64,000 nt of DNA from assembly GCA_943736015.1 (NCBI GenBank), contig OX031057.1, positions 38,526,501-38,590,500 on the forward strand. Direction: 5' to 3'. Numbering within the stretch: position 1 is the stretch's first letter; each line of letters opens with the position of its first letter. The stretch comes from Tridacna crocea. Lineage: Eukaryota > Mollusca > Bivalvia > Cardiida > Cardiidae. Made by a program: the position numbers and the translations under genes. The notes under the pieces are model-generated. The model saw only the letters and a list, made by a program, of their open reading frames with translations, was not told where the DNA came from and did no database searches. Positions 1,009 to 64,000 of this stretch are shown here, piece by piece.

Positions 1009-4000
1009 TTTCAAATTTTCAGTCACTTTTATTGTGTCATCTGCAAATGTTTTTGATTTGGACAAACCTAAAATTTTGTCATTTGGTAATGAGATAAAAT
1101 CATTGTAACAGTGAATTGACTTCTCTCAGAAGGTCATTGCAACAGTGTATGTTTTGCTTTGTTAGTCATTGCAATCCTGGACAGTTATAGTCATTGTAAT
1201 ATTCACCTGATGAATGTCTCGCCTAGCCATTGGTACTGAGATTGACAAATCTTTTGCATAGTCATTGCAACCCTGACCCGACTTCTCTTTCACCTAGTCA
1301 TTGCAAGAATTGCTTGAGATTTTTTTTTATCATAAATGGATATATTGATGTCACCTTGTCATTGCTACAATGGATTGATAATTCTATGACTTTGTCATTG
1401 GAACAATTGATTGACTATCCTCTCGCCTAGACTTTGTAACACTGGATTATACTAAATTCTTATAAAATTGCTTCAACAGTTGATCTACAAAACTGTGATA
1501 GTGATTCAGACACTGGATTTCTCATCTTAATCTTGGAGTTCGGATCAATGGATCTTTTCTATCACCTTGGTAAATGTAACAATGGAGTGATAATTAATTT
1601 ATAAAGATTTTGCAACAGTGAATTGACCTTTTTTTCTCACCAGATAATTGGAACACTGCATTAATAATATTCTTACCAAGTCCATGCAACCCTGAACTAA
1701 CAGTTTACGTATGCATTGCAACAATGGTTTGAAAAATCATTGTATTAGTGAATTATTTTATCTGTAACAAAGTCATTGCAACAATGGATTAATTTTGTTT
1801 TATTTGTCACTGCTACACTGCATTAATTCTCTTTCTACTTGTAATTACAACAATGGATTTAAAAATTTATAACCAAGTCAATGCTAAAATGGATTGACTC
1901 ATTTCTGTTCTTGTCATTGCATCAATAGATATCCTATCCTGATCAAGTAATAACTTGTCTCAGAAGGTCATTGCAACTCTGCATTTTTTGCTTTGTTAGT
2001 CATTGCAGTCCTGGAGAGTTTTAATTGGTCATTGCAACATTCAACTGATGAATGTTGCTTCTAGTCATTGGCACTGAGATTGACAAATCTTTGTGTAGTC
2101 ATTGCAAGCCTGGACTGACTTCTCTTTTACCTAGTCATTGCAACAATGGATTGAGAAACACTTTATCATTGCTGCGCTGGATTGATTATTTTTCTACCAG
2201 TGATTACAAAAATGGACTTAGAAATCTATAACCTAGTCATTGCAACAATTGATTGTCATTGCATCAATAGATATCCTAACCTGACCAAGTAATACCAGTT
2301 TTAGACTTATAAATTCCATATCTAGTGATTGTAAGACTGAATTTACCAATCTGTTACTCAGCCGCTGAAAAACTGGATTATTCGTTTAGGCAGCATAACA
2401 GTGAATTGACTTCTCTCTGATGGTCATTGCAATACTGTATTTTTGCTTTGTTCATCATTGCAATTCTGGACAGTCATAACTAATCATTTCAACATTGAAC
2501 TGGTGAATGTTTCGCCTAGCCTTTGGTAATTCGATTTACAAATCTTTGCATAGATATCCTTATCTGACCAGGTAATAGAAGTTCTAGACTTGTAAATTCC
2601 AAATCTAGTGATAGTAATACTGAATTTATCAATCTCTGACTAAGTCACTGCAAAACTAGATTGACTTGTTAAAATCATTGTAACAGTAAACTGACTAATC
2701 TCAGGTCATTGAAACACTATTTTTTTGCTTTGTTAGTCATTGCAATCTTGGACAGTTGTAACCAGTGATTGCAACATTCAACTGATAAATGTCTCGCCTA
2801 GCCATTGGTACTGAGATTGACAAATCTTTGCATTGTCATTTCAGCTCTGGACCGACTTCTCTTTCACCTAGTCATTGCAACAATGGATTAACTTATTTCT
2901 GTTCTTGCCATTGCATCAATAGATATCCTAACTTGACCAAGTAATGTCACTTATCTATAGACATATAAATTCCATATCTAGTGATTGTAAGACTGAATTT
3001 ACCAATCTCTTATTTAGTCACTGAAAAACTGGATAACTCATTAAAACCATTGTAACAGTGAACTGACTGCTTTCAGAAGGTCATTGCAACACTGTACTTT
3101 TTGCTTTATTTCTCATTGCAATCCTGGACTGTTATAACTAGTCATTGCAACACTGAAGTGATGAATGTCTCGTGGTACTGAGACTGAGAAATTTTTGTGT
3201 GGTAATTGCAACCCTAGACTGACTCCTCTTTCATCTAGTCATTGCAACAATGGATTGAGAAACTTTATAATTTGTCATTGATACGATCATTGTTCTACTA
3301 GTAATTACAATAATGGATTTAGAAATTTATAACATAGTAATTGCAACAGTGGATCGACTTATTTCTGTGCTTGTCATTGTATCAATAGATATCCTAACCT
3401 GACCAAGTGATATCAGTTATAGACTTATAAATTCAATATCTAGTATTTGTAATACTGAAATTAACATTTCTTACTCAGCCGTAGAACACCTTGAGTACTC
3501 GTTAAATGTCTATATAACAGTGAATTGACTTCTTTCAGAAGGTCATTGCAACACTGTATGTTTTGCTTTGTTAGTCATTGCAATCCTGGACAGTTATAAG
3601 TAGTCATTGCAACATTCAACTGATGAATGTCTCGGCTAGCCATAGATGCTGAGATTGATAATACTTTGCATAGTCATTGCAAGCCTGGACTAACTTCTCA
3701 TTGACCTAGTCATTGCAACAATGCATTGAGAAACTTTTTGTCATAGCATCTCTGGATTGATTTTTTTTCACTACTGATTACACGATAGATTTAGAAATTG
3801 ATAAACTAGTCATTGAAACAATGGATTGACTTATTTCTATGCTTGTCATTGCATCAATAGTTATCCTAACCTGACCTAGTAATAATAGTTATAGACTTAT
3901 AAATTCTAAGTCTAGTGATTGTAATACTGAATTTAGCAATCTTTTACTTAGTCACTGCAAAATAGATGGACTGATTAAAAGTCATTATAACAGTGAACTG

Positions 4001-4284
4001 GCTTCTCTCAGAAGGTCATTGCAACACAGCATTTTTTGCTACACCTAATTGTTCCAACAATGGATTGAGAATTTGTTTGTCATTGCCACACTGGATTATT
4101 TTTCTACTATTAAATACAACAATGGATTTAGAAATTTATAACAAAGTCATTACAACAATTGATTGATTTATTTCTGTGCTTGTCATTGCATCAATAGATA
4201 TTCTTACCTGACCGAGTAATATCAATTATAGAGTTATGAATTCCATCTCTATTGATTGAAATACTGATTTTACCAATTTCTTAA
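1009..4284 (+). repeat. Domain A minisatellite, unit 1
   Basis: Imperfect ~35-bp monomers beginning GTCATTGCAAC and often continuing AATGGATTGA. Two deletions relative to unit 2 (at about 1950 and 2552) remove parts of higher-order blocks. Both have matching short words at their breakpoints (AAGTAA and ATAG), the signature of microhomology-mediated loss. The segment 3429-4284 is the left part of the 1019-bp duplication. Confidence 0.85.
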
Positions 4285-5100
4285 ATGCACCTATCCATGC
4301 TTTATTGAAGTTTCTTCTACCAGTACTTTGCACTATGTCTGTTTCAAACCACTGTCTGCTTTCCCACATAAACAAGTCGAAACGCTGATTGGCAGTAAAG
4401 AAACAGGTATCCTGTCGCACTGAATATATGTCAAAGATCTTAAAGTGAAATTCAATATCTAGTATTTGTAATACTAAAATTAACATCTCTTACTCAGCCG
4501 TAGAACACCTTGATTACTCGTTAAATGTCTATATAACAGTGAATTGACTTCTTTCAGAAGGTCATTGCAACACTGTATGTTTTGCTTTGTTAGTCATTGC
4601 AATCCTGGACAGTTATAAGTAGTCATTGCAACATTCAACTGATGAATGTCTCGCCTAGCCATAGGTGCTGAGATTGATAATACTTTGCATAGTCATTGCA
4701 AGCCTGGACTAACTTCTCATTGACCTAGTCATTGCAACAATGCATTGAGAAACTTTTTGTCATAGCATCTCTGGATTGATTTTTTTTCACTACTGATTAC
4801 ACGATAGATATAGAAATTGATAAACTAGTCATTGAAACAATGGATTGACTTATTTCTATGCTTGTCATTGCATCAATAGTTATCCTAACCTGACCTAGTA
4901 ATAATAGTTATAGACTTATAAATTCAAACCACTGTCTGCTTTCCCACATAAACAAGTCGAAACGCTGATTGGCAGTAAAGAAACGGGTATCCTGTCGCAC
5001 TGAATATATGTTAAAGATCTTAAAAGTGAAACAGCTTTAGCTAGGGAGTCAAAGTGTCAATCCGAGTCTTAAGTGCGGAATGTTGCTAACAGAGCCTGTG
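4285..5100 (-). repeat. SINE-like copy 1, unit 1 (split)
   Basis: The 3' part (4285-4447) is separated from the remainder (4926-5100) by duplicated minisatellite. The words around AAACCACTGTCTGCTTTC occur on both sides of the interruption because the 1019-bp duplication copied part of the element. The tRNA-like head lies at the right end on the minus strand. Confidence 0.75.
4448..4925 (+). repeat. Duplicated domain-A segment inside the SINE1 region, unit 1 only
   Basis: This 478-bp stretch is a second copy of 3429-3906 (offset 1019). Its left junction falls at the shared word AAATTC and its right junction at TTC. It splits the first SINE-like copy of unit 1 and is absent from all other units. 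Confidence 0.88.
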
Positions 5101-5816
5101 GATTTTTAGAGATAATGATAACAGAGAGACAGTAAGGAGAGGCAGAGAGTGTGTGAGGGAGTGAGTTTGAGAAAGCTTTGATTTTGACATTTTTTACTTT
5201 ATAGTGGAAAGGTTGTATTGTGGATGAAAAAATAGTTTGTAAGGCTAATGACGGAAAAGGGAAATATCTATACCGTGATAGATTTGAATAGACACGTGTT
5301 GAAAATGTTAGAGGGAAAATATAACAGCCACACGCTTCTTTTCCACATAACAAACGTCAATGCACTGTATATCTATAACTATAACTCTAACAAGTGTTAC
5401 CTGCACTGAAGGAAGGATCCAGTTAGTCTTAAATTATCTTTGATGTTCATTGAACAACGGTAATTTGCTTTGTCGAGATCTTCACAACGCAAATTGTCTA
5501 GTCAGCTTGAGAATTATATTATTCTATTCAGTAATTTAGATGACTTGTTCTGGACAACCACACTTATTTGTTGACATAAAGTAATAATGGAATTTAAGAA
5601 AGTAGATAAATATCAGATATCCATATTGTTAGAATAGAGATGGTGATTTAAATGGCAGGCTGTAAGGGGAGGTGGAGGCCAGGGAAAATTAATCAGACTG
5701 GTAAAATGTTGGTTGATAGGTAATGGTTGTAGTGTTGATACCGGATTTATTAGTAGAGATCGTTGTGTGTGTTTTCTTGGTGTTTTATGGCCGAATTGGT
5801 AAATACCGGACTGTCA

Positions 5817-6058
5817 ATGCACCTACCCATGCTTTATTGAAGCTTAATTTTACCAGTACTTCACAGATTGTCTGTTTTAAACCACTGTTTGCTTTCCCTC
5901 ATTAATAAATCAAAATGCCGATTGGCAGTAAAGAAAAATATATCTTGTCGCAATGAACATATAAAAAGGTCTTGACGAAGAGCTTTGGAACAGCTTCTGA
6001 TAGGGAGTCGAACCAGCAACCCGAGAGTTTTACGCCTGGAATGTTAAGGAGCCTCTTG
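5817..6058 (-). repeat. SINE-like copy 2, unit 1
   Basis: The minus strand shows the best-preserved tRNA-like head of the three copies, with GGTTCGACTCC matching the pol III box B consensus GGTTCGANTCC. Confidence 0.75.
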
Positions 6059-6537
6059 ATTTAAGGAGATACATGTATGAAGACAGACTGTGACAGAGAG
6101 GCAGAGAGTATATGAGGGATTGGGTTTGAGAGAGCTTTTGATTTTGACACGTTTACCTTATAGTGAAAGGTTGTATTGTGGATAAAAAATAGTGAATTAC
6201 TAAGGCCAATGACAGAAAAGCAAAATATCTATAAAGTGCTAGGGTTTAATATTCATGTTTTAAAAATGTTTAAATGGTAAATATCGGAACTGATATAAAA
6301 GAAACTCTGTTCTTTTTCACATAACCATCGTTGAAACAAGGAACAGCAATGAGAGACCAGAATCGCAGTTAATTTCATCAAATATGGGAAAATAATCTTC
6401 CATGTTAGCACTGGCGATCCCCTCTCTCTCTAGACTTGTAGATAAGCGACTGAGCTAATAGATTAGTCTTTTACGATTGATTGATTGAGTGGTTAGTTGA
6501 CTGTATGTGTTTAACAGCGTTTTCAACAATATTTGAG

Positions 6538-6788
6538 TTATATTAGGGCGGCCTGTACATGTACCCATGTTTTCCTGGAGTTCAGTAACCAGTACTTCAC
6601 ACAATATTCTTCCCAAGCCACTAACTGTTTTTTCAACTCCACATAACTCTTGTCAGATCCGCTTTTCAGATGTTGGAGAAGAATTAATCCTGTTGCAATG
6701 TGTATTATCAAATCCCAAAAAAGCATGGCTGAGCCGAGGATCTAAACCAGCTAACCCGTGTCTAAAGTTGTGTTGGCTACGGACCCGA
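6538..6788 (-). repeat. SINE-like copy 3, unit 1
   Basis: Third, more diverged copy. It lacks the short GAGTTTAACG segment found beside it in units 2-7 at the position equivalent to 15752. Confidence 0.75.
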
Positions 6789-8278
6789 TTGCTATTCAAA
6801 TATCTGTCAATAGAGTGTTGATTGGAAATGCTGTGATAGTTCTTACGATTAATAAAAGATAGGGAACCGATTTCAATCGCAAAATACCTATGTCTTCAAA
6901 ACGTTTGAAATACTTTCAGTCCAAGATAGTAGGTGTTTGGTCAGTGCCATAATTCATATTTTCGTTTACCTAGCTGTCAGTAAGTACCATCAATCCGATG
7001 TACCCCTAGCCCCTGAGAGGAGTCAACAAACGCTTGAGATTTAGCCAAGTCCTTTTTCCTTCAGCTGATTGTCCTGAGCTCTCAGTCCATGACACCAGCC
7101 ATTCCCCCCTGGTTAATAAACCACATGTTTTCCTCTCTACATAAGATGCTACCTTGATTGGTCAAGTGTAAGTGGATGCCCAGATTCTGGAATTTACCTT
7201 AACTGAATGTCGTTAGCTCTTACCCTCAGTCTGTTCGATGAAGCTTAGCCTATGAGATGTACCTCCTATCCGAGAAAGGTTTCTTCGTTTCTTTTGATTA
7301 ATATGTATGCCTTTAAAATGGAACCCTTTCAGGCACTGAAACTGTATCTACATGAATGTGATCGACCGGCATTCCTGAGCATGTATTCCCAGTCCGTGCT
7401 GTCATATATCCGTAGTCTTTAACTTGCACTTCAAACCATCGCACCGAGTTCTTGAGATTGTATCATCTGTTCGTGGAATGTTCCCTCAGTGTTTTTCATT
7501 TCCTCTTAGACTTGAAACTCGTGCCTATAGTCCATTTGATGTTCCCCAGGCACTACACCACTGAACTGACTCGAATGCTTGCATTTGCCCTGTTTGCTGA
7601 TAGCCTCAGCCCCTGAGAAACGTATCCTAAATCTGTGAGATGTACCCTTAGCGAGTAACTGTGCCCTGAGACCCGACAACTGTATGGTAAGGCTGTACCA
7701 CATGTCTGTCTGATGTACTCAAGGTTTGTAAGACGTGCACTTTGTCCATAGGTTATTCTCACATAACATGTCACGTATTGTAAGGTATTGAGATCCTTCT
7801 ATAGTCATTGAGATGTATTCTCGGGCCATGAAACCGTGATTTTACTTCCAGCCTGTCATCTTTCACCATAACTTGTGGGATGTTCCCATTTTCCTTTCTC
7901 CACACTCTTAGACTTTGACTTTGCAGAAACCCTAAAACTGTGTCTCTGTCCTTATGTCAACCTTACGTCATGTGCCTCTATCCAAGATCAAAATTTTCTC
8001 TAAGTTCAAATGATGTAACCTCCCTATTTTACATCTGTGCCTAAACTTTGGATTTACCTTCAGCCGATTAGCTTGTGCATTAGGTCTGTGCAATCTTTCC
8101 CCAATTTGTGAACTGTTTCTGCAATCCTAGGGCTCTTGGCCTCAGTCTATGGAATTGAGATATTAGTCGATGTGGGATGCCATTGAAACCCTTGTGCTAT
8201 TTCCTTTCTGTCGTTTTCCAACGTTTAAAAGGTGCCCTTTCTATTCTTTGACAATAAGTTTAATCCCAAAACTGTTTG
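6789..8278. repeat. Domain C, unit 1 (degenerate repeat-like, non-coding)
   Basis: No gene is recognised. The stretch is peppered with variants of a CTGTGAGATGTACCCT or CCTCAGTCTGTG theme about every 25-35 bp, suggesting an ancient, heavily diverged tandem repeat distinct from the GTCATTG family. Confidence 0.5.
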
Positions 8279-8868
8279 TCCCCTCTCTCTTTTACTCTTA
8301 TCGCTCTTGCTCTTTTCCTTACTTTGACATTGTATGTCGTTCTGGCTATCCCTCTTTCTGGGCTGTCTCTTTCTCTCTTCTCTTCCATCCTTCTATATCT
8401 CAGTCATTCTCTTACTCTTTCCTTTCGCTATCTCTCACTATCTCTATTTCTAATGTTTTCTTTTTCTCTGCCTGTTTCTCTATTTCTGTCTAACTCATTT
8501 CTTCTGTTCTCCAGACTCCATTTTTCTTTCAATCTCAATCCCTCCCTCCTTCCTCTCTACACCTGTCTCTCTACTTTTGCCTGTCTCTCTGCTTCTCTCT
8601 CTCTCTCTATCTCTCTGTATCTGTCTGCATCTGCCTCTCTGTGGCTCAATCTTCGTCTCTCTGCCTCTCTCTGGCTCTATATCTCTGCCTATCTTATGCT
8701 CTATTTCAATTCCTCTTTTAGGCTCTATCTGTCAGAATCTCTTTTTCTCTGTCCTGTTCTCTTTCTCTTTTGCTCTGTTCTCTTTCTCTTTTGCTCTCAT
8801 CCTCTATCTGTGTCTCTCACTCATTCTCTCTGTCTCTGTCTGTCTGTCTGTCTCTCTCTTCACGCTCT
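8279..8868 (+). repeat. Domain D CT-rich tract, unit 1
   Basis: About 590 bp overwhelmingly C and T on the plus strand (TCTCTG, CTTTCTC, CTGTCTG words). The pure CT run at 8595-8608 is only (CT)7, followed by an AT interruption. Long open frames here encode Leu/Ser-rich low-complexity peptides and are artefacts of composition. 8869-9000 is a pyrimidine-rich linker. Confidence 0.9.
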
Positions 8869-9000
8869 CATTAACCACATATAGCTTACCTCTTCTTATA
8901 AGTTTTTTCAAGTTCACAGATCGCAGTTTTCTCCTTTACCCCACAAACTGCATTCTCCATTTCAGATTTATCCTCCTTCAGTCCTTTTTACCCTCTGCCT

Positions 9001-10083
9001 CTTGCAACACTTGGTATACTAAATTCTTACAAAATTGTTTCTACACTTGATCTACTTAACTGTGAGAGTGTCATTGAGACACTTGATTTCTCATCTTAAA
9101 CTTCGTTCGGATCACTGGATTTTCTTTATCACCTGGGAAATGTAACAACGTAGTGATAATTAATTTATTAGGTCTTTGGAACAGTGAATTGACTTTTTTT
9201 CTCGCCGGGTAATTTGAACACTGTATTAATAATATTCTTACCAAGTCATTGCAACCAGGAACCAACCTTTTATGTAATCATTGCAACAATGGATTGAGAA
9301 GTCATTGTAACAGTGAATTAATTCATCTGTCACAGAGTCATTGCAACAATGGACTATTTCTTTTGTCATTACTACACTGGACTGATTATTTTTCTGCTAG
9401 TAATTACAACAATGGGTTTAGAAATTTATAACCTAGTCATTGCAACATTGGATTGACTTATTTCTGTCCTTATCATTGCATCAATAGTTATCCTAACCTG
9501 ACCAAGTAATATCAGTTATTGACTTATAAATTCCATATGTAGTGATTGTAATAGTGAATTTACCAAACTCTTACTTAGCTCCTGAAAGACTGGATTACTT
9601 GTTAAAAGTCATTATATGAGTGAATTGACATCGCTCTGAAGGTCATTGCAAGACTATTTTTTGCTTTGTTAGTTGTTGCAAATTTTGGACAGTTATAACT
9701 AGTTGTTCTAACATTCAACCGATGAATGTCTTGCCTAGCCATTAGTACTGAGATTGACCAATCTTTGCATAATCATTGTAACCTTAAACTGACTTCTCTT
9801 TAACCTAGTCATTGTAACAATGGACTGAGAAACTTTTTAATTTGTCATTGCTACACTGGATTGATTTTTTTTCTACTAGTAATGACTGTAATGGATTTAG
9901 AAATTGATAACCTAGTCATTGCAACAATGGATTGACTTATTTCTGTGCTTGTCATTGAATCGGTAGATATCCTTACTTGACTAAGTTATATCAGTAACAG
10001 ACTTTTAAATTCAATGTCTAGTGATTGTAATACTGAGTTTACCAATCTCTTCATTAGTCACTGCAAAACCAGATTGACACTGG
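9001..10083 (+). repeat. Domain E minisatellite, unit 1
   Basis: GTCATTGCAAC-family monomers with block markers at 9472 and 9951 (479 bp apart). The first ~480 bp align with domain A of the next unit at an offset of about 1650 (shared TAATAATATTCTTACCAAGT at about 9227 and 10884). Confidence 0.87.
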
Positions 10084-10207
10084 TTAACCCATTACTACAC
10101 AATCCCTACTTTTGAGGCCCCTGAGAAAGAAGGGTTTAGAAAACATTGTGGGAAAAAGAGAAAATGCTGGTAACCAGCATTTCCTCCTTTTCCCACAACG
10201 TTTTCTA
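10084..10207 (+). mobile_element. Truncated TTAA-type MITE with hairpin, end of unit 1
   Basis: Starts with TTAA then CCCATTACTACACAATC. The arms 10137-10171 and 10173-10207 are inverted repeats of 35 bp with 3 mismatches around a 1-nt centre (GCTGGTAACCAGC). The right arm stops after about 35 bp, and the expected mirror of the terminal ~50 bp, ending GGG then TTAA, is missing. The left terminus is related to that of the TTAA-flanked element at 55428-57130. TTAA duplication with CCC...GGG ends fits piggyBac-like or other TTAA-targeting DNA transposons. No transposase is present. Confidence 0.72.
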
Positions 10208-10223
10208 TCCTTCACAAAACAAA

Positions 10224-13200
10224 TTTCAAATTTTCAGTCACTTTTATTGTGTCATCTGCAAATGTTTTTGATTTGGACAAACCTAAAATTTTGTCATTTG
10301 GTAATGAGATAAAATCATTGTAACAGTGAATTGACTTTTCTCAGAAGGTCATTGCAACAGTGTATGTTTTGCTTTGTTAGTCATTGCAATCCTGGACAGT
10401 TATAGTCATTGTAATATTCACCTGATGAATGTCTCGCCTAGCCATTGGTACTGAGATTGACAAATCTTTTGCATAGTCATTGCAACCCTGACCCGACTTC
10501 TCTTTCACCTAGTCATTGCAAGAATTGCTTGAGATTTTTTTTTATCATAAATGGATATATTGATGTCACCTTGTCATTGCTACAATGGATTGATAATTCT
10601 ATGACTTTTTGTCATTGGAACAATTGATTGACTATCCTCTCGCCTAGACTTTGTAACACTGGATTATACTAATTTCTTATAAAATTGCTTCGACAGTTGA
10701 TCTAAACTGTGATAGTGATTCAGACACTGGATTTCTCATCTTAATCTTGGAGTTCGGATCAATGGATCTTTTCTATCACCTTGGTAAATGTAACAATGGA
10801 GTGATAATTAATTTATAAAGATTTTGCAACAGTGAATTGACCTTTTTTTCTCACCAGATAATTGGAACACTGCATTAATAATATTCTTACCAAGTCCATG
10901 CAACCCTGAACTAACAGTTTACGTATGCATTGCAACAATGGTTTGAAAAATCATTGTGACTTAAACAGTGAATTATTTTATCTGTAACAAAGTTATTGCA
11001 ACAATGGATTAATTTTGTTTTATTTGTCACTGCTACACTGCATTGATTCTCTTTCTACTTGTAATTACAACAATGGATTTAAAAATTCATAACCAAGTCA
11101 ATGCTAAAATGGATTGACTCATTTCTGTTCTTGTCATTGCATCAATAGATATCCTATCCTGATCAAGTAATATCACTTCTAAATATATCAATTCCATACC
11201 TAGTGATTGTAACAATGAATTTACCAATCTCTTACTCAGTCACTGCAAAACTAGATTGACTTGTTAAAATCATTGCAATAGTGAAGTAACTTGTCTCAGA
11301 AGGTCATTGCAACTCTGCATTTTTTGCTTTGTTAGTCATTGCAGTCCTGGAGAGTTATAATTGGTCATTGCAACATTCAACTGATGAATGTTGCTTCTAG
11401 TCATTGGCACTGAGATTGACAAATCTTTGTGTAGTCATTGCAAGCCTGGACTGACTTCTCTTTTACCTAGTCATTGCAACAATGGATTGAGAAACACTTT
11501 ATCATTGCTGCGCTGGATTGATTATTTTTCTACCAGTGATTACAAAAAATGGACTTAGAAATCTATAACCTAGTCATTGCAACAATTGATTGTCATTGCA
11601 TCAATAGATATCCTAACCTGACCAAGTAATACCAGTTTTAGACTTATAAATTCCATATCTAGTGATTGTAAGACTGAATTTACCAATCTGTTACTCAGCC
11701 GGTGAAAAACTGGATTATTCGTTAAGTCATCATAACAGTGAATTGACTTCTCTCTGATGGTCATTGCAACACTGTATTTTTGCTTTGTTCATCATTGCAA
11801 TTCTGGACAGTGATAACTAGTCATTGCAACATTGAACTGGTGAATGTTTCGCCTAGCCTTTGGTAATTCGATTTACAAATCTTTGCATAGTAGTTGCAAC
11901 CCTATACCGACTTCTCTCTCACCTAGTCATTGCAACAATAGAATGAGAAACTTTTGTATTTGCCATTGCAACACTGGATTGATTATTTCCTACTATTAAT
12001 TACAACAATGGATTTAGTAATTTATAACCTAGTCATTGCAACAATTGAATGACTTATTTCTGTGCTTGTTATTGGATCAATAGATATCCTTATCTGACCA
12101 GGTAATACAAGTTCTAGACTTGTAAATTCCAAATCTAGTGATAGTAATACTGAATTTATCGATCTCTAAGTCACTGCAAAACTAGATTGACTTGTTAAAA
12201 TCATTGTAACAGTAAACTGACTAATCTCAGGTCATTGAAACACTATTTTTTTGCTGTGTTGGTCATTGCAATCTTGGACAGTTGTAACTAGTGATTGCAA
12301 CATTCAACTGATAAATGTCTCGCCTAGCCATTGGTACTGAGATTGACAAATCTTTGCATTGTCATTTCAGCCCTGGACCGACTTCTCTTTCACCTAGTCA
12401 TTGCAACAATGGATTAACTTATTTCTGTTCTTGCCATTGCATCAATAGATATCCTAACTTGACCAAGTAATGTCACTTATCTATAGACATATAAATTCCA
12501 TATCTAGTGATTGTAAGACTGAATTTACCAATCTCTTATTTAGTCACTGAAAAACTGGATAACTCATTAAAACCATTGTAACAGTGAACTGACTGCTTTC
12601 AGAAGGTCATTGCAACACTGTACTTTTTGCTTTATTTCTCATTGCAATCCTGGACTGTTATAACTAGTCATTGCAACACTGAAGTGATGAATGTCTCGTG
12701 GTACTGAGACTGAGAAATTTTTGTGTGGTAATTGCAACCCTAGACGGACTTCTCTTTGATCTAGTCATTGCAACAATGGATTGAGAAACTTTATAATTTG
12801 TCATTGATACGGTCATTGTTCTACTAGTAATTACAATAATGGATTTAGAAATTTATAACATAGTAATTGCAACAGTGGATTGATTTATTTCTGTGCTTGT
12901 CATTGTATCAATAGATATCCTAACCTGACCAAGTAATATCAGTTATAGACTTATAAATTGAATATCTAGTATTTGTAATACTGAAATCAACATCTCTTAC
13001 TCAGCCGTAGAACACCTTGATTACTCGTTAAATGTCTATATAACAGTGAATTGACTTCTTTCAGAAGGTCATTGCAACACTGTATGTTTTGCTTTGTTAG
13101 TCATTGCAATCCTGGACAGTTATAAGTAGTCATTGCAACATTCAACTGATGAATGTCTCGCCTAGCCATAGATGCTGAGATTGATAATACTTTGCATAGT

Positions 13201-46056: not shown

Positions 46057-46072
46057 TCCTTCACAAAACAAA

Positions 46073-50607: not shown

Positions 50608-50849
50608 ATGCACCTACCCATGCTTTATTGAAGTTTATTTTTACCAGTACTTTACAGATTGTCTGTTTTAAACCACTGTTTGCTTTCCCTCATTAATAAA
50701 TCAAAATGCCGATTGGCAGTAAAGAAAAATGTATCTTGTCGCAATGAACATATAAAAAGGTCTTGACGAAGAGCTTTGGAACAGCTTCTGATAGGGAGTC
50801 GAACCAGCAACCCGAGAGTTTTATGCCTGGAATGTTAAGGAGCCTCTTG
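50608..50849 (-). repeat. SINE-like copy 2, unit 6
   Basis: Box-B-like word intact; I see no difference from unit 5. Confidence 0.75.
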
Positions 50850-51331: not shown

Positions 51332-51582
51332 TTATATTAGGGCGGCCTGTACATGTACCCATGTTTTCCTGGAGTTCAGTAACCAGTACTTCACACAATA
51401 TTCTTCCCAAGCCACTAACTGTTTTTTCAACTCCACATAACTCTTGTCAGATCCGCTTTTCAGATGTTGGAGAAGAAGTAATCCTGTCGCAATGTGTATT
51501 ATCAAATCCCAGAAAAGCATGGCTGAGCCGAGGATCTAAACCAGCTAACCCGTGTCTAAAGTTGTGTTCGCTACGGACCCGA
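51332..51582 (-). repeat. SINE-like copy 3, unit 6
   Basis: Same as unit 5. Confidence 0.75.
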
Positions 51583-53084
51583 TTGCTATTCAAATATCTG
51601 TCGAGTTTAACGTCAATAGAGTGTTGATTGGAAATGCTGTGATAGTTCTTACGATTAATAAAAGATAGGGAACCGATTTCAATCGCAAAATACCTATGTC
51701 TTCAAAACGTTTGAAATACTTTCAGTCCAAGATAGTAGGTGTTTGGTCAGTGCCATAATTCATATTTTCGTTTACCTAGCTGTCAGTAAGTACCATCAAT
51801 CCGATGTACCCCTAGCCCCTGAGAGGAGTCAACAAACGCTTGAGATTTAGCCAAGTCCTTTTTCCTTCAGCTGATTGTCCTGAGCTCTCAGTCCATGACA
51901 CCAGCCATTCCCCCCTGGTTAATAAACCACATGTTTTCCTCTCTACATAAGATGCTACCTTGATTGGTCAAGTGTAAGTGGATGCCCAGATTCTGGAATT
52001 TACCTTAACTGAATGTCGTTAGCTCTTACCCTCAGTCTGTTCGATGAAGCTTAGCCCATGAGATGTACCTCCTATCCGAGAAAGGTTTCTTCGTTTCTTT
52101 TGATTAATATGTATGCCTTTAAAATGGAACCCTTTCAGGCACTGAAACTGTATCTACATGAATGTGATCGACCGGCATTCCTGAGCATGTATTCCCAGTC
52201 CGTGCTGTCATATATCCGTAGTCTTTAACTCGCACTTCAAACCATCGCACCGAGTTCTTGAGATTGTATCATCTGTTCGTGGAATGTTCCCTCAGTGTTT
52301 TTCATTTCCTCTTAGACTTGAAACTCGTGCCTATAGTCCATTTGATGTTCCCCAGTCACTACACCACTGAACTGACTCGAATGCTTGCATTTGCCCTGTT
52401 TGCTGATAGCCTCAGCCCCTGAGAAACGTATCCTAAATCTTTGAGATGTACCCTTAGCGAGTAACTGTGCCCTGAGACCCGACAACTGTATGGTAAGGCT
52501 GTACCACATGTCCGTCTGATGTACTCAAGGTTTGTAAGACGTGCACTTTGTCCATAGGTTATTCTCGCATAACATGTCACGTATTGTAAGGTATTGAGAT
52601 CCTTCTATAGTCATTGAGATGTATTCTCGGGCCATGAAACCGTGATTTTACTTCCAGCCTGTCATCTTTCACCATAACTTGTGGGATGTTCCCATTTTCC
52701 TTTCTCCACACTCTTAGACTTTGACTTTGCAGAAACCCTAAAACTGTGTCTCTGTCCTTATGTCAAACTTACGTCATGTGCCTCTATCCAAGATCAAAAT
52801 TTTCTCCAAGTTCAAATGATGTAACCTCTCTATTTTACATCTGTGCCTAAACTTTGGATTTACCTTCAGCCGATTAGCTTGTGCATTAGGTCTGTGCAAT
52901 CTTTCCCCAATTTGTGAACTGTTTCTGCAATCCTAGGGCTCTTGGCCTCAGTCTATGGAATTGAGATATTAGTCGATGTGGGATGCCATTGAAACCCTTG
53001 TGCTATTTCCTTACTGTCGTTTTCCAACGTTTAAAAGGTGCCCTTTCTATTCTTTGACAATAAGTTTAATCCCAAAACCGTTTG
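51583..53084. repeat. Domain C, unit 6
   Basis: As unit 5, with one private change CCCCAGTCACTAC at about 52351. Confidence 0.5.
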
Positions 53085-53397
53085 TCCCCTCTCTCTTTTA
53101 CTCTTATCGCTCTTGCTCTCTTCCTTACTTTGACATTGTATGTCGTTCTGGCTATCCCTCTTTCTGGGCTGTCTCTTTCTCTCTTCTCTTCCATCCTTCT
53201 ATATCTCAGTCATTCTCTTACTCTTTCCTTTCGCTATCTCTCACTATCTCTATTTCTAATGTTTTCTTTTTCTCTGCCTGTTTCTCTATTTCTGTCTAAC
53301 TCATTTCTTCTGTTCTCCAGACTCCATTTTTCTTTCAATCTCAATCCCTCCCTCCTTCCTCTCTACACCTGTCTCTCTACTTTTGCCTGTCTCTCTG

Positions 53398-53440
<43 letters not shown>

Positions 53441-53691
53441 CTGTCTGCATCTGCCTCTCTGTGGCTTAATCTTCGTCTCTCTGCCTCTCTCTGGCTCTGT
53501 ATCTCTGCCTATCTTATGCTCTATTTCAATTCCTCTTTTAGGCTCTATCTGTCAGACTCTCTTTTTCTCTATCCTGTTCTCTTTCTCTTTCGCTCTGTTC
53601 TCTTTCTCTTTCGCTCTCATTCTCTCTCTGTGTCTCTCACTCATTCTCTCTGTCTCTGTCTGTCTGTCTCTCTCTCTCTCCCTCACTCTCT
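53085..53691 (+). repeat. Domain D CT-rich tract, unit 6
   Basis: Pure run (CT)18 at 53401-53436, the longest in the window. It opens a 264-codon Leu/Ser-rich frame only because of its length modulo 3. 53692-53826 is linker. Confidence 0.9.
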
Positions 53692-53826
53692 CATTAACCA
53701 CATATCATAGCTTACCTCTTCTTATAAGTTTTTTCAAGTTCACAGATCGCAGTTTTCTCCTTTACCCCACAAACTGCATTCTCCATTTCAGATTTATCCT
53801 CCTTCAGTCCTTTTTACCCTCTGCCT

Positions 53827-54646
53827 CTTGCAACACTTGGTATACTAAATTCTTACAAAATTGTTTCTACACTTGATCTACTTAACTGTGAGAGTATCAT
53901 TGAGACACTTGATTTCTCATCTTAAACTTCGTTCGGATCACTGGATTTTCTTTATCACCTGGGAAATGTAACAACGTAGTGATAATTAATTTATTAGGTC
54001 TTCGGAACAGTGAATTGACTTTTTTTCTCGCCGGGTAATTTGAACACTGTATTAATAATATTCTTACCAAGTCATTGCAACCAGGAACCAACCTTTTATG
54101 TAATCATTGCAACAATGGATTGAGAAGTCATTGTAACAGTGAATTAATTCATCTGTCACAGAGTCATTGCAACAATGGACTATTTCTTTTGTCATTACTA
54201 CACTGGACTGATTATTTTTCTGCTAGTAATTACAACAATGGGTTTAGAAATTTATAACCTAGTCATTGCAACATTGGATTGACTTATTTCTGTCCTTATC
54301 ATTGCATCAATAGTTATCCTAACCTGACCAAGTAATATCAGTTATTGACTTATAAATTCCATATGTAGTGATTGTAATAGTGAATTTACCAAACTCTTAC
54401 TTAGCTCCTGAAAGACTGGATTACTTGTTAAAAGTCATTATATGAGTGAATTGACATCGCTCTGAAGGTCATTGCAAGACTATTTTTTGCTTTGTTAGTT
54501 GTTGCAAATTTTGGACAGTTATAACTAGTTGTTCTAACATTCAACCGATGAATGTCTTGCCTAGCCATTAGTACTGAGATTGACCAATCTTTGCATAATC
54601 ATTGTAACCTTAAACTGACTTCTCTTTAACCTAGTCATTGTAACAA
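53827..54646 (+). repeat. Domain E minisatellite, unit 6, left part
   Basis: Ends with AACAA (54642-54646), the left target-site duplication of the inserted foldback element. Confidence 0.87.
54642..54646 (+). repeat. Left target-site duplication AACAA
   Basis: Single copy in the empty sites of units 1-5 (for example 45665-45669), duplicated around the insertion. Confidence 0.85.
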
Positions 54647-55423
54647 CACACTGATCAACGTGAGCCGCGGACACCATGTGTTCTCGGTACACCAGATCAA
54701 ATTTTTACATGAAAGAACCGGAGGTGGTGTAAGTATTTTCATCTTTATGGACCGGATTTACCTAGAAAGAAATGTTGATTTACAGCAATGTCAAGACGAA
54801 TGATTGATCTGTTTACATACATACTACGGAATAATAATACCATCATCTAAGCGAGCTGTGGCTTTATGAGCAACTGGGGTCTTATTGTTTTGCAGTTTAT
54901 TGCCAAATCTTGGACAAAATTCCATACCATTATTCATTTTACAAGTTTGTATGATAAGATACATGTTTTCCCTAATAGAACACAAAATTTCACTTAGAAA
55001 TGTCCATCCAAAGCGAAGATATGTGTTTTTAAATGGACCTGGGTAGAGGAAAATATGCTAACAAGACACTAATTTTATTTTCAATGTATGCACATGGACA
55101 CCAGATCAGAAAAAGCTTGGGGTAACTGGACACCAACCTTTAAATCATCAATATTTCTGCCTGAAACTCGATGCATGGGCTGTGTACGAAGACTATTTTT
55201 GTAAACATTATGTCACTACGGTCCATTACCAGATAAAGAGCATGTTCAACCCAATTTCATTACTTCTAGCACTTGCTTTTTTTTTTTTTTAAATATTTGC
55301 AATATTACGGCAATTTACGAAGTAGACCTACGATGCTTGATCACAATTGACCGGTCATTGCCTCCAATGTTGGTGCAAGACATGTTCCTTGTTTACAGCG
55401 TTTCAGTTTAATGAATGGCGTAA
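54647..55423 (+). repeat. Left inverted arm of the foldback element
   Basis: About 777 bp, complementary to 57135-57902 with roughly a tenth of positions different by eye. It contains a T run (about 55269-55290) that is longer than in the right arm. The region matching the right arm's open frames carries in-frame stops here. Confidence 0.87.
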
Positions 55424-55427
55424 TTAA
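55424..55427 (+). repeat. Left TTAA target duplication of inner element
   Basis: TTAA immediately outside CCCATTACC. Confidence 0.75.
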
Positions 55428-57130
55428 CCCATTACCACGCAATCAGGAGCTTTAATGTCCCTGGGAAAGATGGCTTAGAAAAACATTGTCCATAAAGAAA
55501 AAACCCTATTAACTAATACAGTGTGTACATTATTTACCACATTTGGCCTGATTCTTAGTTTAAATAATTTTCAACTCCGCTTGGCCAACTGTTAGAATGG
55601 CGTTGTACCCTTCGTACATTTACATGCGTGCGTTTGTTCGTCTACGCGTTTATTTCTAAAATTTTTATTTAATAGACTTCTCCTCAGAATTAAACCACCA
55701 AGTGGAAATCAACAAAAATCAACGTGGATGATTCCATAAGTTTCTTTCGAGATACTTCGATCCTTTAAAAAACATGGCTTATGTGGAAGGAGCTTATTTT
55801 CCGTGTACGGCGCGTTGTGAAAATTGTAAAATTTGTCCTCTCTAAAGAACTCAATCACGAGATTGGCATTGGGTAGTTTTCTATCACACTCCTTCAATAA
55901 ATTTTGATATGTTGAAAAACATATAGCTTTTGTTGGTGGGGCTTATTTTCTCTTAGTGTCATAAAGCGAAAGTACTTGCAGCTCTTTAAATTCATTGATA
56001 ATAATTGTATACATGTACATGTATTTCATAACACAGATGATCTCTGATAATGTTTCATTTCATCCAATATGCTGGGTGATCATGATATATGAGATATTTA
56101 TCTTTATTGTTACAAACTTACATAGTTCTTGGAAATACAGCATTATAGTGCTCAGATATAGTTACAGTTCAACCTATATTAATCAATTACCAAAGGGACG
56201 GTCGAAAGAGCTTGCCAAAGGCAGGTGCTTGCTTGATATTGATGAACGTCTGTGCATTGCTATTTGTCGGGAACTAAATGTATGCTTGTTTATTCAGGTT
56301 GCTTGCTTAATACCGGTGGCCAACATGCCAGGTTTCACTATATTTCGTATTGCTGAAATTTATTGAAGAGGTCATCAGACCCTCCAACAGTGGTGATTTT
56401 AAAATTCAGACTGCCAGAGAGTTTGCTAATTCTATATCTTCGAGCGTAATTGTTCTGATACACAGTCTGTTTCGTCATAGTTTTGTAAATAAAGCGAAAA
56501 AAAAAGGAAACAGGAAATAGACGTGGTTTATTTTTATATATGACGAATTTCAGAAAAGGTTTCATTTAGTAATTTGCCATGGCTGCATTTAACCTCTCTA
56601 ATAATTTCCTAGCACACTACGTACCTTTGAGCGATATAAATTTAACCTGATTCTGTTCCCTCTTTTTATCCATGCAGAAGTCTTTAGTTGGTTCTAGAGC
56701 ATCGAGAGGTAGTATCACACTCAAAGTGAAAATTGTACAAGTGAAAAAAATGTCAGTAATCAAGTTGCTGAGAAATTTCAAAAACAAACTCACCACTTTA
56801 TCAGTACTCGAATGTTTACAAATATGTCTATTATGTATTAAGCATTATCTTGAAGATAATTAATTTTCATAGTCCCATTCAACATGTAGCGTGTTCTACA
56901 AAAAAGTTTTTAATACCATCAAGAATGAAAGAACTGAACAATTTCGGTGTATGTACAATGTAACTCAAAGCCGGCGATCTAACGTATACATACGTTGGCC
57001 AGTGTGACCAATTCTTGCACTCAAAGTAATGAACACGAATTACAGATTCTTTGGATTAGTTAATAGGGACAATGTTTTTCTAAGCCATCTTTCCCCAGGA
57101 GATTATAGCTCATGATTGCCTGGTAATGGG
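55428..57130. mobile_element. TTAA-flanked DNA element nested at the palindrome centre
   Basis: 1703 bp bounded by TTAA (55424-55427 and 57131-57134) with inverted ends CCCATTACCA...TGGTAATGGG. The TIRs are about 76-90 bp (55428-55517 and 57055-57130), and the left one carries an extra A-rich stretch of about 12 bp. The ends match the MITE fragment in each macrosatellite unit. The interior is AT-rich. Its open frames, up to 123 codons (55995-56366 plus; 56338-56565 and 55709-55897 minus; 56672-56863 plus), resemble nothing I recognise, and no complete transposase is present. Best read as a non-autonomous piggyBac-like or other TTAA-targeting element. Confidence 0.75.
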
Positions 57131-57134
57131 TTAA
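57131..57134 (+). repeat. Right TTAA target duplication of inner element
   Basis: TTAA immediately outside GGTAATGGG. Confidence 0.75.
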
Positions 57135-57902
57135 TACGCCATTCATAAAACTGAAACGCTGTAAACAAGGAACATGTCTTGCACCAACATTGGAGGCAAT
57201 GACCGGACAATTGTGATCAAGCATCGTAAGTCTACTTCGTAAATTGCCGTAATATTGAAAATGTTTCAAAAAAGCAAGTGCTAGAAGTAATGAAGTTGGG
57301 TTGAACATGCTTTTTATCAGGTAATGGACCGTAGTGACATAATGTTTACAAAAATAGTCTTCGTACACAGCCCATGCATCGAGTTTCAGGCAGAAATATT
57401 GATGATTTAAAGGTTGGTGTCCAGTTACCACAAGCTTTTTCTGATCTGGTGTCCATGTGCATACATTGAAAATAAAATTGGTGTCTTGTTAGCATATTTT
57501 CCTCTACCCAGGTCCATTCAAAAACGTATATCTTCGCTTTGGATGGACATTTGTAAGTGAAATTTTGTGTTCCTATAGGAAATACATTTATCTTATCATA
57601 CAAAGTTGTAAAAGGAACAATGGTTTGGGATTTTGTCCAAAATTTGGTAATAAACTGCAAAACAATAAGACCCCAGTTGCTCATAAAGCCACAGCTCGCT
57701 TAGATGCTGGTATTGTTATTCCCTAGTTTGTATGTAAACCGATCAATCATTCGTCTTGACATTGCTGTAAATCAACATTTCTATCTAGGTTAATCAGGTC
57801 CACAAAAATGAAAATACTTACACCACCACCGGTTCTTCCATGGAAAATCCGATCTGGTGTACCGAGAACACATGGTGTCCGCGGCTCACGTTGATCAGTG
57901 TG
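57135..57902 (-). repeat. Right inverted arm of the foldback element
   Basis: About 768 bp, the inverted copy of 54647-55423. On the minus strand it has two overlapping open frames in different phases (57346-57684, 112 codons; 57060-57431, 123 codons). Comparison with the left arm shows amino-acid-changing differences and stops (TAC to TAG, CAA to TAA), so coding function is unlikely. Confidence 0.87.
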
Positions 57903-57907
57903 AACAA
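57903..57907 (+). repeat. Right target-site duplication AACAA
   Basis: Partner of 54642-54646. Confidence 0.85.
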
Positions 57908-58170
57908 TGGACTGAGAAACTTTTTAATTTGTCATTGCTACACTGGATTGATTTTTTTTCTACTAGTAATGACTGTAATGGATTTAGAAATTGATAACCT
58001 AGTCATTGCAACAATGGATTGACTTATTTCTGTGCTTGTCATTGAATCGGTAGATATCCTTACTTGACTAAGTTATATCAGTAACAGACTTTTAAATTCC
58101 ATGTCTAGTGATTGTAATACTGAGTTGACCAATCTCTTCATTAGTCACGGCAAAACCAGATTGACACTGG
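57903..58170 (+). repeat. Domain E minisatellite, unit 6, right part
   Basis: Resumes with AACAA (57903-57907), the right target-site duplication, and continues exactly as the other units. Confidence 0.87.
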
Positions 58171-58294
58171 TTAACCCATTACTACACAATCCCTACTTTT
58201 GAGGCCCCTGAGAAAGAAGGGTTTAGAAAACATTGTGGGAAAAAGAGAAAATGCTGGTAACCAGCATTTCCTCCTTTTCCCACAACGTTTTCTA
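58171..58294 (+). mobile_element. Truncated TTAA-type MITE, end of unit 6
   Basis: Hairpin arms 58224-58258 and 58260-58294; same truncation. Confidence 0.72.
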
Positions 58295-58310
58295 TCCTTC
58301 ACAAAACAAA

Positions 58311-61300
58311 TTTCAAATTTTCAGTCACTTTTATTGTGTCATCTGCAAATGTTTTTGATTTGGACAAACCTAAAATTTTGTCATTTGGTAATGAGATAAA
58401 ATCATTGTAACAGTGAATTGACTTCTCTCAGAAGGTCATTGCAACAGTGTATGTTTTGCTTTGTTAGTCATTGCAATCCTGGACAGTTATAGTCATTGTA
58501 ATATTCACCTGATGAATGTCTCGCCTAGCCATTGGTACTGAGATTGACAAATCTTTTGCATAGTCATTGCAACCCTGACCCGACTTCTCTTTCACTTAGT
58601 CATTGCAAGAATTGCTTGAGATTTTTTTTTTATCATAAATGGATATATTGATGTCACCTTGTCATTGCTACAATGGATTGATAATTCTATGACTTTGTCA
58701 TTGGAACAATTGATTGACTATCCTCTCGCCTAGACTTTGTAACACTGGATTATACTAAATTCTTATAAAATTGCTTCGACAGTTGATCTAAACTGTGATA
58801 GTGATTCAGACACTGGATTTCTCATCTTAATCTTGGAGTTCGGATCAATGGATCTTTTCTATCACCTTGGTAAATGTAACAATGGAGTGATAATTAATTT
58901 ATAAAGATTTTGCAACAGTGAATTGACCTTTTTTTCTCACCAGATAATTGGAACACTGCATTAATAATATTCTTACCAAGTCCATGCAACCCTGAACTAA
59001 CAGTTTACGTATGCATTGCAACAATGGTTTGAAAAATCATTGTAACTTAAACAGTGAATTATTTTATCTGTAACAAAGTCATTGCAACAATGGATTAATT
59101 TTGTTTTATTTGTCACTGCTACACTGCATTGATTCTCTTTCTACTTGTAATTACAACAATGGATTTAAAAATTTATAACCAAGTCAATGCTAAAATGGAT
59201 TGACTCATTTCTGTTCTTGTCATTGCATCAATAGATATCCTATCCTGATCAAGTAATATCACTTCTAGATATATCAATTCCATACCTAGTGATTGTAACA
59301 ATGAATTTACCAATCTCTTACTCAGTCACTGCAAAACTAGATTGACTTGTTAAAATCATTGCAATAGTGAAGTAACTTGTCTCAGAAGGTCATTGCAACT
59401 CTGCATTTTTTGCTTTGTTAGTCATTGCAGTCCTGGAGAGTTATAATTGGTCATTGCAACATTCAACTGATGAATGTTGCTTCTAGTCATTGGCACTGAG
59501 ATTGACAAATCTTTGTGTAGTCATTGCAAGCCTGGACTGACTTCTCTTTTACCTAGTCATTGCAACAATGGATTGAGAAACACTTTATCATTGCTGCGCT
59601 GGATTGATTATTTTTCTACCAGTGATTACAAAAAATGGACTTAGAAATCTATAACCTAGTCATTGCAACAATTGATTGTCATTGCATCAATAGATATCCT
59701 AACCTGACCAAGTAATACCAGTTTTAGACTTATAAAGTCCATATCTAGTGATTGTAAGACTGAATTTACCAATCTGTTACTCAGCCGGTGAAAAACTGGA
59801 TTATTCGTTAAGTCATCATAACAGTGAATTGACTTCTCTCTGATGGTCATTGCAACACTGTATTTTTGCTTTGTTCATCATTGCAATTCTGGACAGTGAT
59901 AACTAGTCATTGCAACATTGAACTGGTGAATGTTTCGCCTAGCCTTTGGTAATTCGATTTACAAATCTTTGCATAGTAGTTGCAACCCTATACCGACTTC
60001 TCTCTCACCTAGTCATTGCAACAATAGAATGAGAAACTTTTGTATTTGCCATTGCAACACTGGATTGATTATTTCCTACTATTAATTACAACAATGAATT
60101 TAGTAATTTATAACCTAGTGATGCAACAATTGAATGACTTATTTCTGTGCTTGTTACTGGATCAATAGATATCCTTATCTGACCAGGTAATACAAGTTCT
60201 AGACTTGTAAATTCCAAATCTAGTGATAGTAATACTGAATTTATCGATCTCTAAGTCACTGCAAAACTAGATTGACTTGTTAAAATCATTGTAACAGTAA
60301 ACTGACTAATCTCAGGTCATTGAAACACTATTTTTTTGCTCTGTTAGTCATTGCAATCTTGGACAGTTGTAACTAGTGATTGCAACATTCAACTGATAAA
60401 TGTCTCGCCTAGCCATTGGTACTGAGATTGACAAATCTTTGCATTGTCATTTCAGCCCTGGACCGACTTCTCTTTCACCTAGTCATTGCAACAATGGATT
60501 AACTTATTTCTGTTCTTGCCATTGCATCAATAGATATCCTAACTTGACCAAGTAATGTCACTTATCTATAGACATATAAATTCCATATCTAGTGATTGTA
60601 AGACTGAATTTACCAATCTCTTATTTAGTCACTGAAAAACTGGATAACTCATTAAAACCATTGTAACAGTGAACTGACTGCTTTCAGAAGGTCATTGCAA
60701 CACTGTACTTTTTGCTTTATTTCTCATTGCAATCCTGGACTGTTATAACTAGTCATTGCAACACTGAAGTGATGAATGTCTCGTGGTACTGAGACTGAGA
60801 AATTTTTGTGTGGTAATTGCAACCCTAGACTGACTTCTCTTTGATGTAGTCATTGCAAGAATGGATTGAGAAACTTTATAATTTGTCATTGATACGATCA
60901 TTGTTCTACTAGTAATTACAATAATGGGTTTAGAAATTTATAACACAGTAATTGCAACAGTGGATTGACTTATTTCTGTGCTTGTCATTGTATCAATAGA
61001 TATCTTAACCTGACCAAGTGATATCAGTTATAGACTTATAAATTCAATATCTAGTATTTGTAATACTGAAATCAACATCTCTTACTCAGCCGTAGAACAC
61101 CTTGATTACTCGTTAAATGTCTATATAACAGTGAATTGACTTCTTTCAGAAGGTCATTGCAACACTGTATGTTTTGCTTTGTTAGTCATTGCAATCCTGG
61201 ACAGTTATAAGTAGTCATTGCAACATTCAACTGATGAATGTCTCGCCTAGCCATAGATGCTGAGATTGATAATACTTTGCATAGTCATTGCAAGCCTGGA

Positions 61301-61895
61301 CTAACTTCTCATTGACCTAGTCATTGCAACAATGCATTGAGAAACTTTTTGTCATAGCATCTCTGGATTGATTTTTTTTCACTACTGATTACACGATAGA
61401 TTTAGAAATTGATAAACTAGTCATTGAAACAATGGATTGACTCATTTCTATGCTTGTCATTGCATCAATAGTTATCCTAACCTGACCTAGTAATAATAGT
61501 TATAGACTTATAAATTCTAAGTCTAGTGATTGTAATACTGAATTTAGCAATCTTTTACTTAGTCACTGCAAAATAGATGGACTGATTAAAAGTCATTATA
61601 ACGGTTAACTGGCTTCTCTCAGAAGGTCATTGCAACACAGCATTTTTTGCTACACCTAATTGTTCCAACAATGGATTGAGAATTTGTTTGTCATTGCCAC
61701 ACTGGATTATTTTTCTACTATTAAATACAACAATGGATTTAGAAATTTATAACAAAGTCATTACAACAATTGATTGATTTATTTCTGTGCTTGTCATTGC
61801 ATCAATAGATATTCTAACCTGACCGAGTAATATCAATTATAGAGTTATGAATTCCATCTCTATTGATTGAAATACTGATTTTACCAATTTCTTAA
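58311..61895 (+). repeat. Domain A minisatellite, unit 7
   Basis: Same order as units 4-6, with private changes such as ACAATGAATT at about 60091 in place of ACAATGGATT. Confidence 0.88.
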
Positions 61896-62131
61896 ATGCA
61901 CCTATCCATGCTTTATTGAAGTTTCTTCTACCAGTACTTTGCACTATGTCTGTTTCAAACCACTGTCTGCTTTCTCACATAAACAAGTCGAAACGCTGAT
62001 TGGCAGTAAAGAAACGGGTATCCTGTCGCACTGAATATATGTCAAAGATCTTAAAGTGAAACAGCTTTAGCTAGGGAGTCAAAGTATCAATCCGAGTCTT
62101 AAGTGCGGAATGTTGCTAACAGAGCCTGTGG
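61896..62131 (-). repeat. SINE-like copy 1, unit 7
   Basis: Same sequence type as units 4-6. Confidence 0.72.
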
Positions 62132-62843
62132 ATTTTTAGAGATAATGATAACAGAGAGACAGTAAAGAGAGGCAGAGAGTGTGTGAGGGAGTGAGTTTGA
62201 GAAAGCTTTGATTTTGACATTTTTACTTTATAGTGGAAAGGTTGTATTGTGGATGAAAAAATAGTTTGTAAGGCTAATGACGGAAAAGGGAAATATCTAT
62301 ACCGTGATAGATTTGAATAGACACGTGTTGAAAATGTTAGAGGGAAAATATTATAACAGCCACACGCTTCTTTTCCACATAACAAATGTCAATGCACTGA
62401 ATATCTATAACTATAACTCTAACAAGTGTTACCTGCACTGAAGGAAGGATCCAGTTAGTCTTAAATTATCTTTGATGTTCATTGAACAACGGTAATTTGC
62501 TTTGTCGAGATCTTCACAACGCAAATTGTCTAGTCAGCTTGAGAATTATATTATTCTATTCAGTAATTTAGATGACTTGTTCTGGACAACCACACTTATT
62601 TGTTGACATAAAGCAATAATGGAATTTAAGAAAGTAGATAAATATCAGATATCCATATTGTTAGAATAGAGATGGTGATTTAAAGGGCTGGCTGTAAGGG
62701 GAGGTGGAGGCCAGGGAAAATTAATCAGACTGGTAAAATGTTGGTTGATAGGTAATGGTTGTAGTGTTGATACCGGATTTATTAGTAGAGATCGTTGTGT
62801 TTGTTTTCTTGGTGTTTTATGGCCTAATTGGTCAATACTGTCA

Positions 62844-63085
62844 ATGCACCTACCCATGCTTTATTGAAGTTTATTTTTACCAGTACTTTACAGATTGTCT
62901 GTTTTAAACCACTGTTTGCTTTCCCTCATTAATAAATCAAAATGCCGATTGGCAGTAAAGAAAAATGTATCTTGTCGCAATGAACATATAAAAAGGTCTT
63001 GACGAAGAGCTTTGGAACAGCTTCTGATAGGGAGTCGAACCAGCAACCCGAGAGTTTTATGCCTGGAATGTTAAGGAGCCTCTTG
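62844..63085 (-). repeat. SINE-like copy 2, unit 7
   Basis: Box-B-like word intact; same as units 5-6. Confidence 0.75.
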
Positions 63086-63567
63086 ATTTAAGGAGATACA
63101 TGTATGAAGACCGAGAGACTGTGACAGGCAGAGAGTATATTATGAGGGATTGGGTTTGAGAGAGCTTTTGATTTTGACACGTTTACCTTATAGTGAAAGG
63201 TTGTATTGTGGATAAAAAATAGTGAATTACTAAGGCCAATGACAGAAAAGCAAAATATCTATAAAGTGCTAGGGTTTAATATTCATGTTTTAAAAATGTT
63301 TAAATGGTAAATATCGGAACTGATATAAAAGAAACTCTGTTCTTTTTCACATAACCATCGTTGAAACAAGGAACAGCAATGAGAGACCAGAATCGCAGTT
63401 AATTTCATCAAATATGGGAAAATAATCTTCCATGTTAGCACTGGCGATCCCCTCTCTCTCTAGACTTGTAGATATGCGACTGAGCTAATAGATTAGTCTT
63501 TTACGATTGATTGATTGAGTGGTTAGTTGACTGTATGTGTTTAACAGCGTTTTCAACAATATTTGAG

Positions 63568-63818
63568 TTATATTAGGGCGGCCTGTACATGTACCCATGT
63601 TTTCCTGGAGTTCAGTAACCAGTACTTCACACAATATTCTTCCCAAGCCACTAACTGTTTTTTCAACTCCACATAACTCTTGTCAGATCCGCTTTTCAGA
63701 TGTTGGAGAAGAAGTAATCCTGACGCAATGTGTATTATCAAATCCCAGAAAAGCATGGCTGAGCCGAGGATCTAAACCAGCTAACCCGTGTCTAAAGTTG
63801 TGTTCGCTACGGACCCGA
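63568..63818 (-). repeat. SINE-like copy 3, unit 7
   Basis: Carries CCTGACGCAATG, one change from units 5-6. Confidence 0.75.
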
Positions 63819-64000
63819 TTGCTATTTAAATATCTGTCGAGTTTAACGTCAATAGAGTGTTGATTGGAAATGCTGTGATAGTTCTTACGATTAATAAAAG
63901 ATAGGGAACCGATTTCAATCGCAAAATACCTATGTCTTCAAAACGTTTGAAATACTTTCAGTCCAAGATAGTAGGTGTTTGGTCAGTGCCATAATTCATA
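63819..64000. repeat. Domain C, unit 7 (start only)
   Basis: The first ~180 bp of the domain, truncated by the window end. Confidence 0.5.

Follow-up and report, generated by a model that had tools for sequence, protein, structure and literature searches.

In the human genome, gene-free megasatellites with units of several kb and embedded transposons have been described; at 4p11, units of ~6 kb contain blocks of about 1.6 kb that consist of the 147-bp Acro satellite, and the expansion of these arrays is presumed to proceed via unequal crossing over (PMC2588610). The human macrosatellites DXZ4 and D4Z4 are likewise built of kilobase units arranged head to tail; their units measure 3 and 3.3 kb, DUX4 lies in those of D4Z4, and DXZ4 is mentioned as bound by CTCF. 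Regarding terminology, macrosatellite was applied in a crayfish paper to all repeats longer than 100 bp, the means of the families being 202-622 bp (PMC13130569). As for homogenisation, a review states that the process is more efficient in the central repeats of an array than in the terminal ones, i.e. the edge effect (PMC5615363).

The array presented here, contained in a window of 64 kb (the whole stretch of DNA analysed), is genuine but belongs to an ordinary class of large satellites; among the descriptions found, that of the human gene-free megasatellites containing transposons comes nearest to it (PMC2588610). Just like them, it combines gene-free units of several kb with blocks of smaller satellites within the unit; unlike them, it exhibits a ~36-bp monomer, the higher-order repeats of which measure ~460 bp, as well as a divergence ladder that can be read from an edge, and its transposon pieces come down to one putative MITE-like stretch where the human arrays contain identified families. 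With ~9 kb, its units are also longer than those of DXZ4 and D4Z4. Compared with the statement of the review (PMC5615363), the edge effect concerns here ~9-kb units and a single edge. A small and non-exhaustive search, covering its sources in part, returned no invertebrate for which a ~9-kb unit devoid of genes is described. With a probability of roughly three in four, the array would be a gene-free megasatellite arisen by local tandem duplication, in which unequal exchange then expanded and homogenised the interior and left out the copies at the edge. The genome would most likely be eukaryotic, to judge from the satellite organisation and from the lack of detected genes.

In self-BLAST, the window appears as one head-to-tail repeat family from 1009 to 64000, with lags mostly of 8.95-8.97 kb and an identity of 99.35% over 40,807 columns between 4923-45669 and 13869-54646. 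Six complete ~8.96-kb units, numbered U0 to U5 from the left, are followed by U6, of which the window includes 5,690 bp. Unit starts, defined via homology to the left array edge, lie at 1009, 10224, 19185, 28137, 37100, 46073 and 58311, and all units, as well as their internal features, are given on the + strand: the edge unit U0 (1009-10223; 9,215 bp), which is the most diverged in the alignment, U1 (10224-19184; 8,961 bp), U2 (19185-28136; 8,952 bp), U3 (28137-37099; 8,963 bp), taken as the reference unit for offsets, U4 (37100-46072; 8,973 bp), U5 (46073-58310; 12,238 bp with an insertion counted) and the initial 5,690 bp of U6 (58311-64000), stopped by the window end. Of the two array edges, the left one is in the window, the right end being situated beyond it. 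The earlier note had announced a macrosatellite with a unit of ~8.96 kb in at least 6.6 copies and a sharp left edge, and had proposed comparing the window against itself; the unit, the copy number, the edge and the head-to-tail family all stand, and the steps between its anchors (8961, 8952, 8963, 8973 and 12238) are the measured lengths of U1 to U5. The class is also right, as the tandem units are of kilobase size, follow each other head to tail and share 98.9-99.9% identity in aligned bases. The internal repeats, the hairpin at the junction, the insertion behind the long step and the divergence gradient were absent from that note.

Substitutions between the 21 pairs of units range from 0.10% (U4-U5) to 1.12% (U0-U6), and divergence from the later units drops inward, from 1.0% for U0 to 0.7% for U1, 0.5% for U2, 0.2% for U3 and 0.1% for U4. 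Among U0-U5, 145 sites are variable; in gap-free columns, sites private to one unit against the other five number 53 in U0, 27 in U1, 17 in U2, 5 in U3, 2 in U4 and 4 in U5, the count for U0 including changes common to all the others since sites were not polarised. An assembly artefact repeating one unit is hardly credible in view of these 145 sites graded by position and of an insertion with target duplication confined to U5, and the copies can be considered real on the sequence evidence, as already advanced in the earlier note. The rolling-circle amplification of an excised circle, reinserted in one event, would account for the strict head-to-tail order and the single constant junction but predicts near-equal distances between units, against the 1.0-1.1% at the edge and 0.1% inside that were observed; already disfavoured on this ground, it is very improbable.

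The tree of units forms a ladder in array order, with supports of 99, 95 and 86 on the main splits; being unrooted, it does not give the order of U0 and U1, and that of U4, U5 and U6 is unresolved (support 40). Along the natural order of the units, 26 of the 36 informative sites split once, which is the joint best score of 360 orders, in a tie with three others that differ from it just in the order of U0/U1 or U4/U5; the best of the remaining orders reach 22. The remaining 10/36 sites conflict with the ladder and, together with the higher private count of U5 (4) than of U4 (2), weigh against the preferred explanation. The ladder alone cannot tell unequal exchange from one-directional growth, in which template switching or break-induced replication would recopy the newest unit at a moving right end and the older units would hardly exchange: both predict the ladder as well as private sites that become fewer from U0 to U4.

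Permutation tests of patchiness, run on 7 of the 15 pairs among U0-U5, bear on this point. Between U2 and U3, only 4 of 68 variable sites differ inside offsets 2710-7381 against 34 of 77 outside, and none of 100 permutations was as strong. Permutations as strong numbered 1/100 for U1-U2, 4/100 for U2-U4 and 0/100 for U1-U3, where the segment corresponds to an excess of differences; for U0-U1, U3-U4 and U4-U5, with 7, 9 and 43 permutations of 100 as strong, patchiness is not clear, which also weighs against the preferred explanation. The patchy similarity of U2 and U3 and the 10/36 conflicting sites point to exchange between existing units, which makes one-directional growth an unlikely alternative. 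From the sequence, the patchiness is read as exchange among neighbouring units from which edge units would be excluded. For the edge effect in satellite arrays, the review on the matter cites the 1999 work of McAllister and Werren.

At the left, the array borders a flank (1-1008; no strand assigned) with 28.9% GC over 1-1000. In comparisons with U3 and with the insertion of U5, this flank gave a single 27-bp match (85%, E 0.002), which lies in the middle of U3, with neither the end of U3 nor the insertion matched; the first array base is therefore in phase with the unit junction. This base, at 1009, is the position lying 16 bp beyond the end of a hairpin in the other units, and post hoc arithmetic gives an edge at random phase a chance of ~40 in 8,963 to fall at most 20 bp from the hairpin end. 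As the edge is in junction phase and the flank does not match the unit end, the junction can be read as the original duplication seam, with a left breakpoint that would be located at 1009.

The length of U0 results from its own indels: in the alignment, it is devoid of blocks of about 116 and 192 bp and carries an extra segment of 581 bp (4442-5023, limits from the alignment). The first part of this segment, 481 bp, is a higher-order piece 98.5% like U0 3429-3909 and 98.75% like its counterparts in U1-U6; the second part is another copy of the adjoining middle sequence, 97.2% identical over 109 bp within U0 and 97.1-97.8% over 138 bp to the other units. The composite thus places a higher-order satellite piece in the middle region, followed by duplicated middle sequence, and template switching might be its source.

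Each complete unit ends with a putative MITE-like stretch, which in U3 covers 137 bp (36963-37099), begins with TTAACCC without a matching end and has the unit junction as its right limit by definition. TTAA marks certain DNA transposons, and the label MITE is suggested by this start, by the hairpin inside the stretch (37012-37083), which ends 16 bp ahead of the junction, and by 81 columns that align at 74% with a portion of the U5 insertion. Folded as RNA, the 156 nt of 36955-37110 reach -52.4 kcal/mol (z -7.2), with none of 200 shuffles as stable. The six complete unit junctions are identical across the stretch, the hairpin being present at each. The absence of variable columns among U0-U5 (0/137) makes a weak case for special conservation, since 145 variable sites over some 8,600 columns free of gaps would predict about 2 in 137. 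A miRNA hairpin family was also discarded, the best Rfam model, mir-4654, scoring 33.3 bits against a gathering score of 87. If the hairpin-forming remnant of a MITE drove the array, through cruciform or stalled-fork breaks occurring once per unit and fixing the 9-kb phase of expansion and exchange, the array would be a transposon-seeded, self-amplifying megasatellite; this is distinctly doubtful.

Within the unit, described here for U3, satellite block A (28225-31709; offsets 89-3573), with counterparts in U0-U6, is composed of ~36-bp monomers in ~460-bp higher-order repeats and is followed by a middle region (31721-33175) holding a ~490-510-bp segment in two copies (31721-32209 and 32663-33175; 74.4% over 523 columns). 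Next come a pyrimidine-rich tract (35135-35879; 745 bp, 80% C+T), whose five counterparts in complete units measure 729-749 bp, and satellite block B (35944-36953; offsets 7808-8817), ~1.0 kb of the same monomers as in block A. Pyrimidine-rich tracts can adopt triplex DNA. The monomer has 104 matches in U3, of which 103 lie within blocks A and B and one at offset 6273, two being on the opposite strand, against 0-2 matches per sequence in 20 first-order Markov sequences; a spacing of 36 is the commonest (33/103), those of 28-36 and about 70 being frequent too. TRF reports periods of 461-471 with 76-78% matches, in addition to 282 and 367, and seven internal BLAST pairs of block A, at lags of 364-1771, share 76.7-80.9% identity. 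Over the whole unit (28137-37099), CpG observed/expected is 0.39, with 0.23 in the first 3.5 kb, mostly block A, and 0.57 at offsets 3600-7000; these values perhaps originate from germline methylation.

A conserved protein-binding box in the monomer is not supported. Its apparent conservation is biased as the monomers were picked by that very motif; between higher-order copies, motif identity (79-85%) does exceed that of the spacer (74-79%) in 7/7 overlapping comparisons, but against circular shifts the excess is clear in one of seven (6 of 513 shifts), shifts as strong making up from 78/714 (11%) to 417/885 (47%) in the other six. A motif that stays constant as the rest of the monomer diverges, in the manner of a CENP-B-box-like satellite, is likewise not supported. 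SOX-like sites were also considered: on both strands of U3, ACAATG occurs 31 times (mean 8.6, maximum 17 in 100 first-order Markov sequences) and ACAA[AT]G 43 times (mean 19.2, maximum 35 in 100 such sequences). This excess may just reflect the monomer sequence and the sites are not retained as a special feature.

The step of 12,238 bp between 45961 and 58199 is one unit, the reason for its length being a transposon-like insertion of 3,256 bp in U5 (54647-57902; no strand assigned). Its inverted arms of ~850 bp share 93.2% identity over 849 columns in self-BLAST, a separate comparison giving four shorter ungapped pieces at 90-97%. The termini are CACACTG and CAGTGTG and, judged from the empty site in U4, the insertion is flanked by a 5-bp target duplication, AACAA. 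Most simply, this is a nonautonomous DNA transposon that arrived after array formation; the 5-bp duplication and the CAC ends presumably recall Transib-type elements. The arms also hold a TTAACCCATTAC segment resembling the start of the unit-junction stretch.

Concerning coding content, the earlier note had the units as gene-free, which holds within the reach of the Pfam and Rfam libraries: the six read-through frames of U3, like those of the insertion, gave no Pfam match above cut-off, and in the 64-kb window neither a tRNA nor an Rfam match reaching its gathering score was found. Med15_fungi in U3, WKTW_rpt in the insertion and LRR_11 in the flank fall below the Pfam cut-off and are taken as chance matches. 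The window has 20 stop-free stretches of at least 110 aa; 17 of them overlap a pyrimidine-rich tract and the three others, of 117-142 aa, are located in the insertion. An exact-pattern search returned 0 matches in viral_contigs and 0 in genome_contigs, which says little as these are viral and prokaryotic collections and may not include the genome of the window itself. rDNA spacers commonly carry subrepeats and pyrimidine-rich tracts, both of which are present in the unit, and one could envisage a spacer of ribosomal type or some other functional noncoding array whose gene the family libraries miss. No recognisable RNA gene was found per unit, since none of the window reaches an Rfam gathering score and the ten matches obtained in U3 with open thresholds, the best being miRNA models on the hairpin, all stay below theirs; this origin has very little probability.

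Local duplication followed by unequal exchange would have proceeded as follows. A ~36-bp monomer, then ~460-bp higher-order repeats, would have spread locally, and a MITE-like element starting with TTAA would have arrived beside these satellite repeats. A stretch of ~9 kb would then have been duplicated in tandem, with a right breakpoint located inside the MITE-like element or immediately past it; such a breakpoint would explain why the unit junction lies there and would make the left end of U0 the original left breakpoint. Subsequently, unequal crossing-over and gene conversion would have expanded and homogenised the interior, edge units leaving the exchange and diverging, before a transposon entered U5. 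In all likelihood, the array plays no coding role and is kept by recombination. A breakpoint that may be the original one, an edge unit that has diverged, copies graded by position and signs of exchange between neighbours would make it a readable record of its own formation, and hence a clean case for testing how satellites with long units start and are homogenised.
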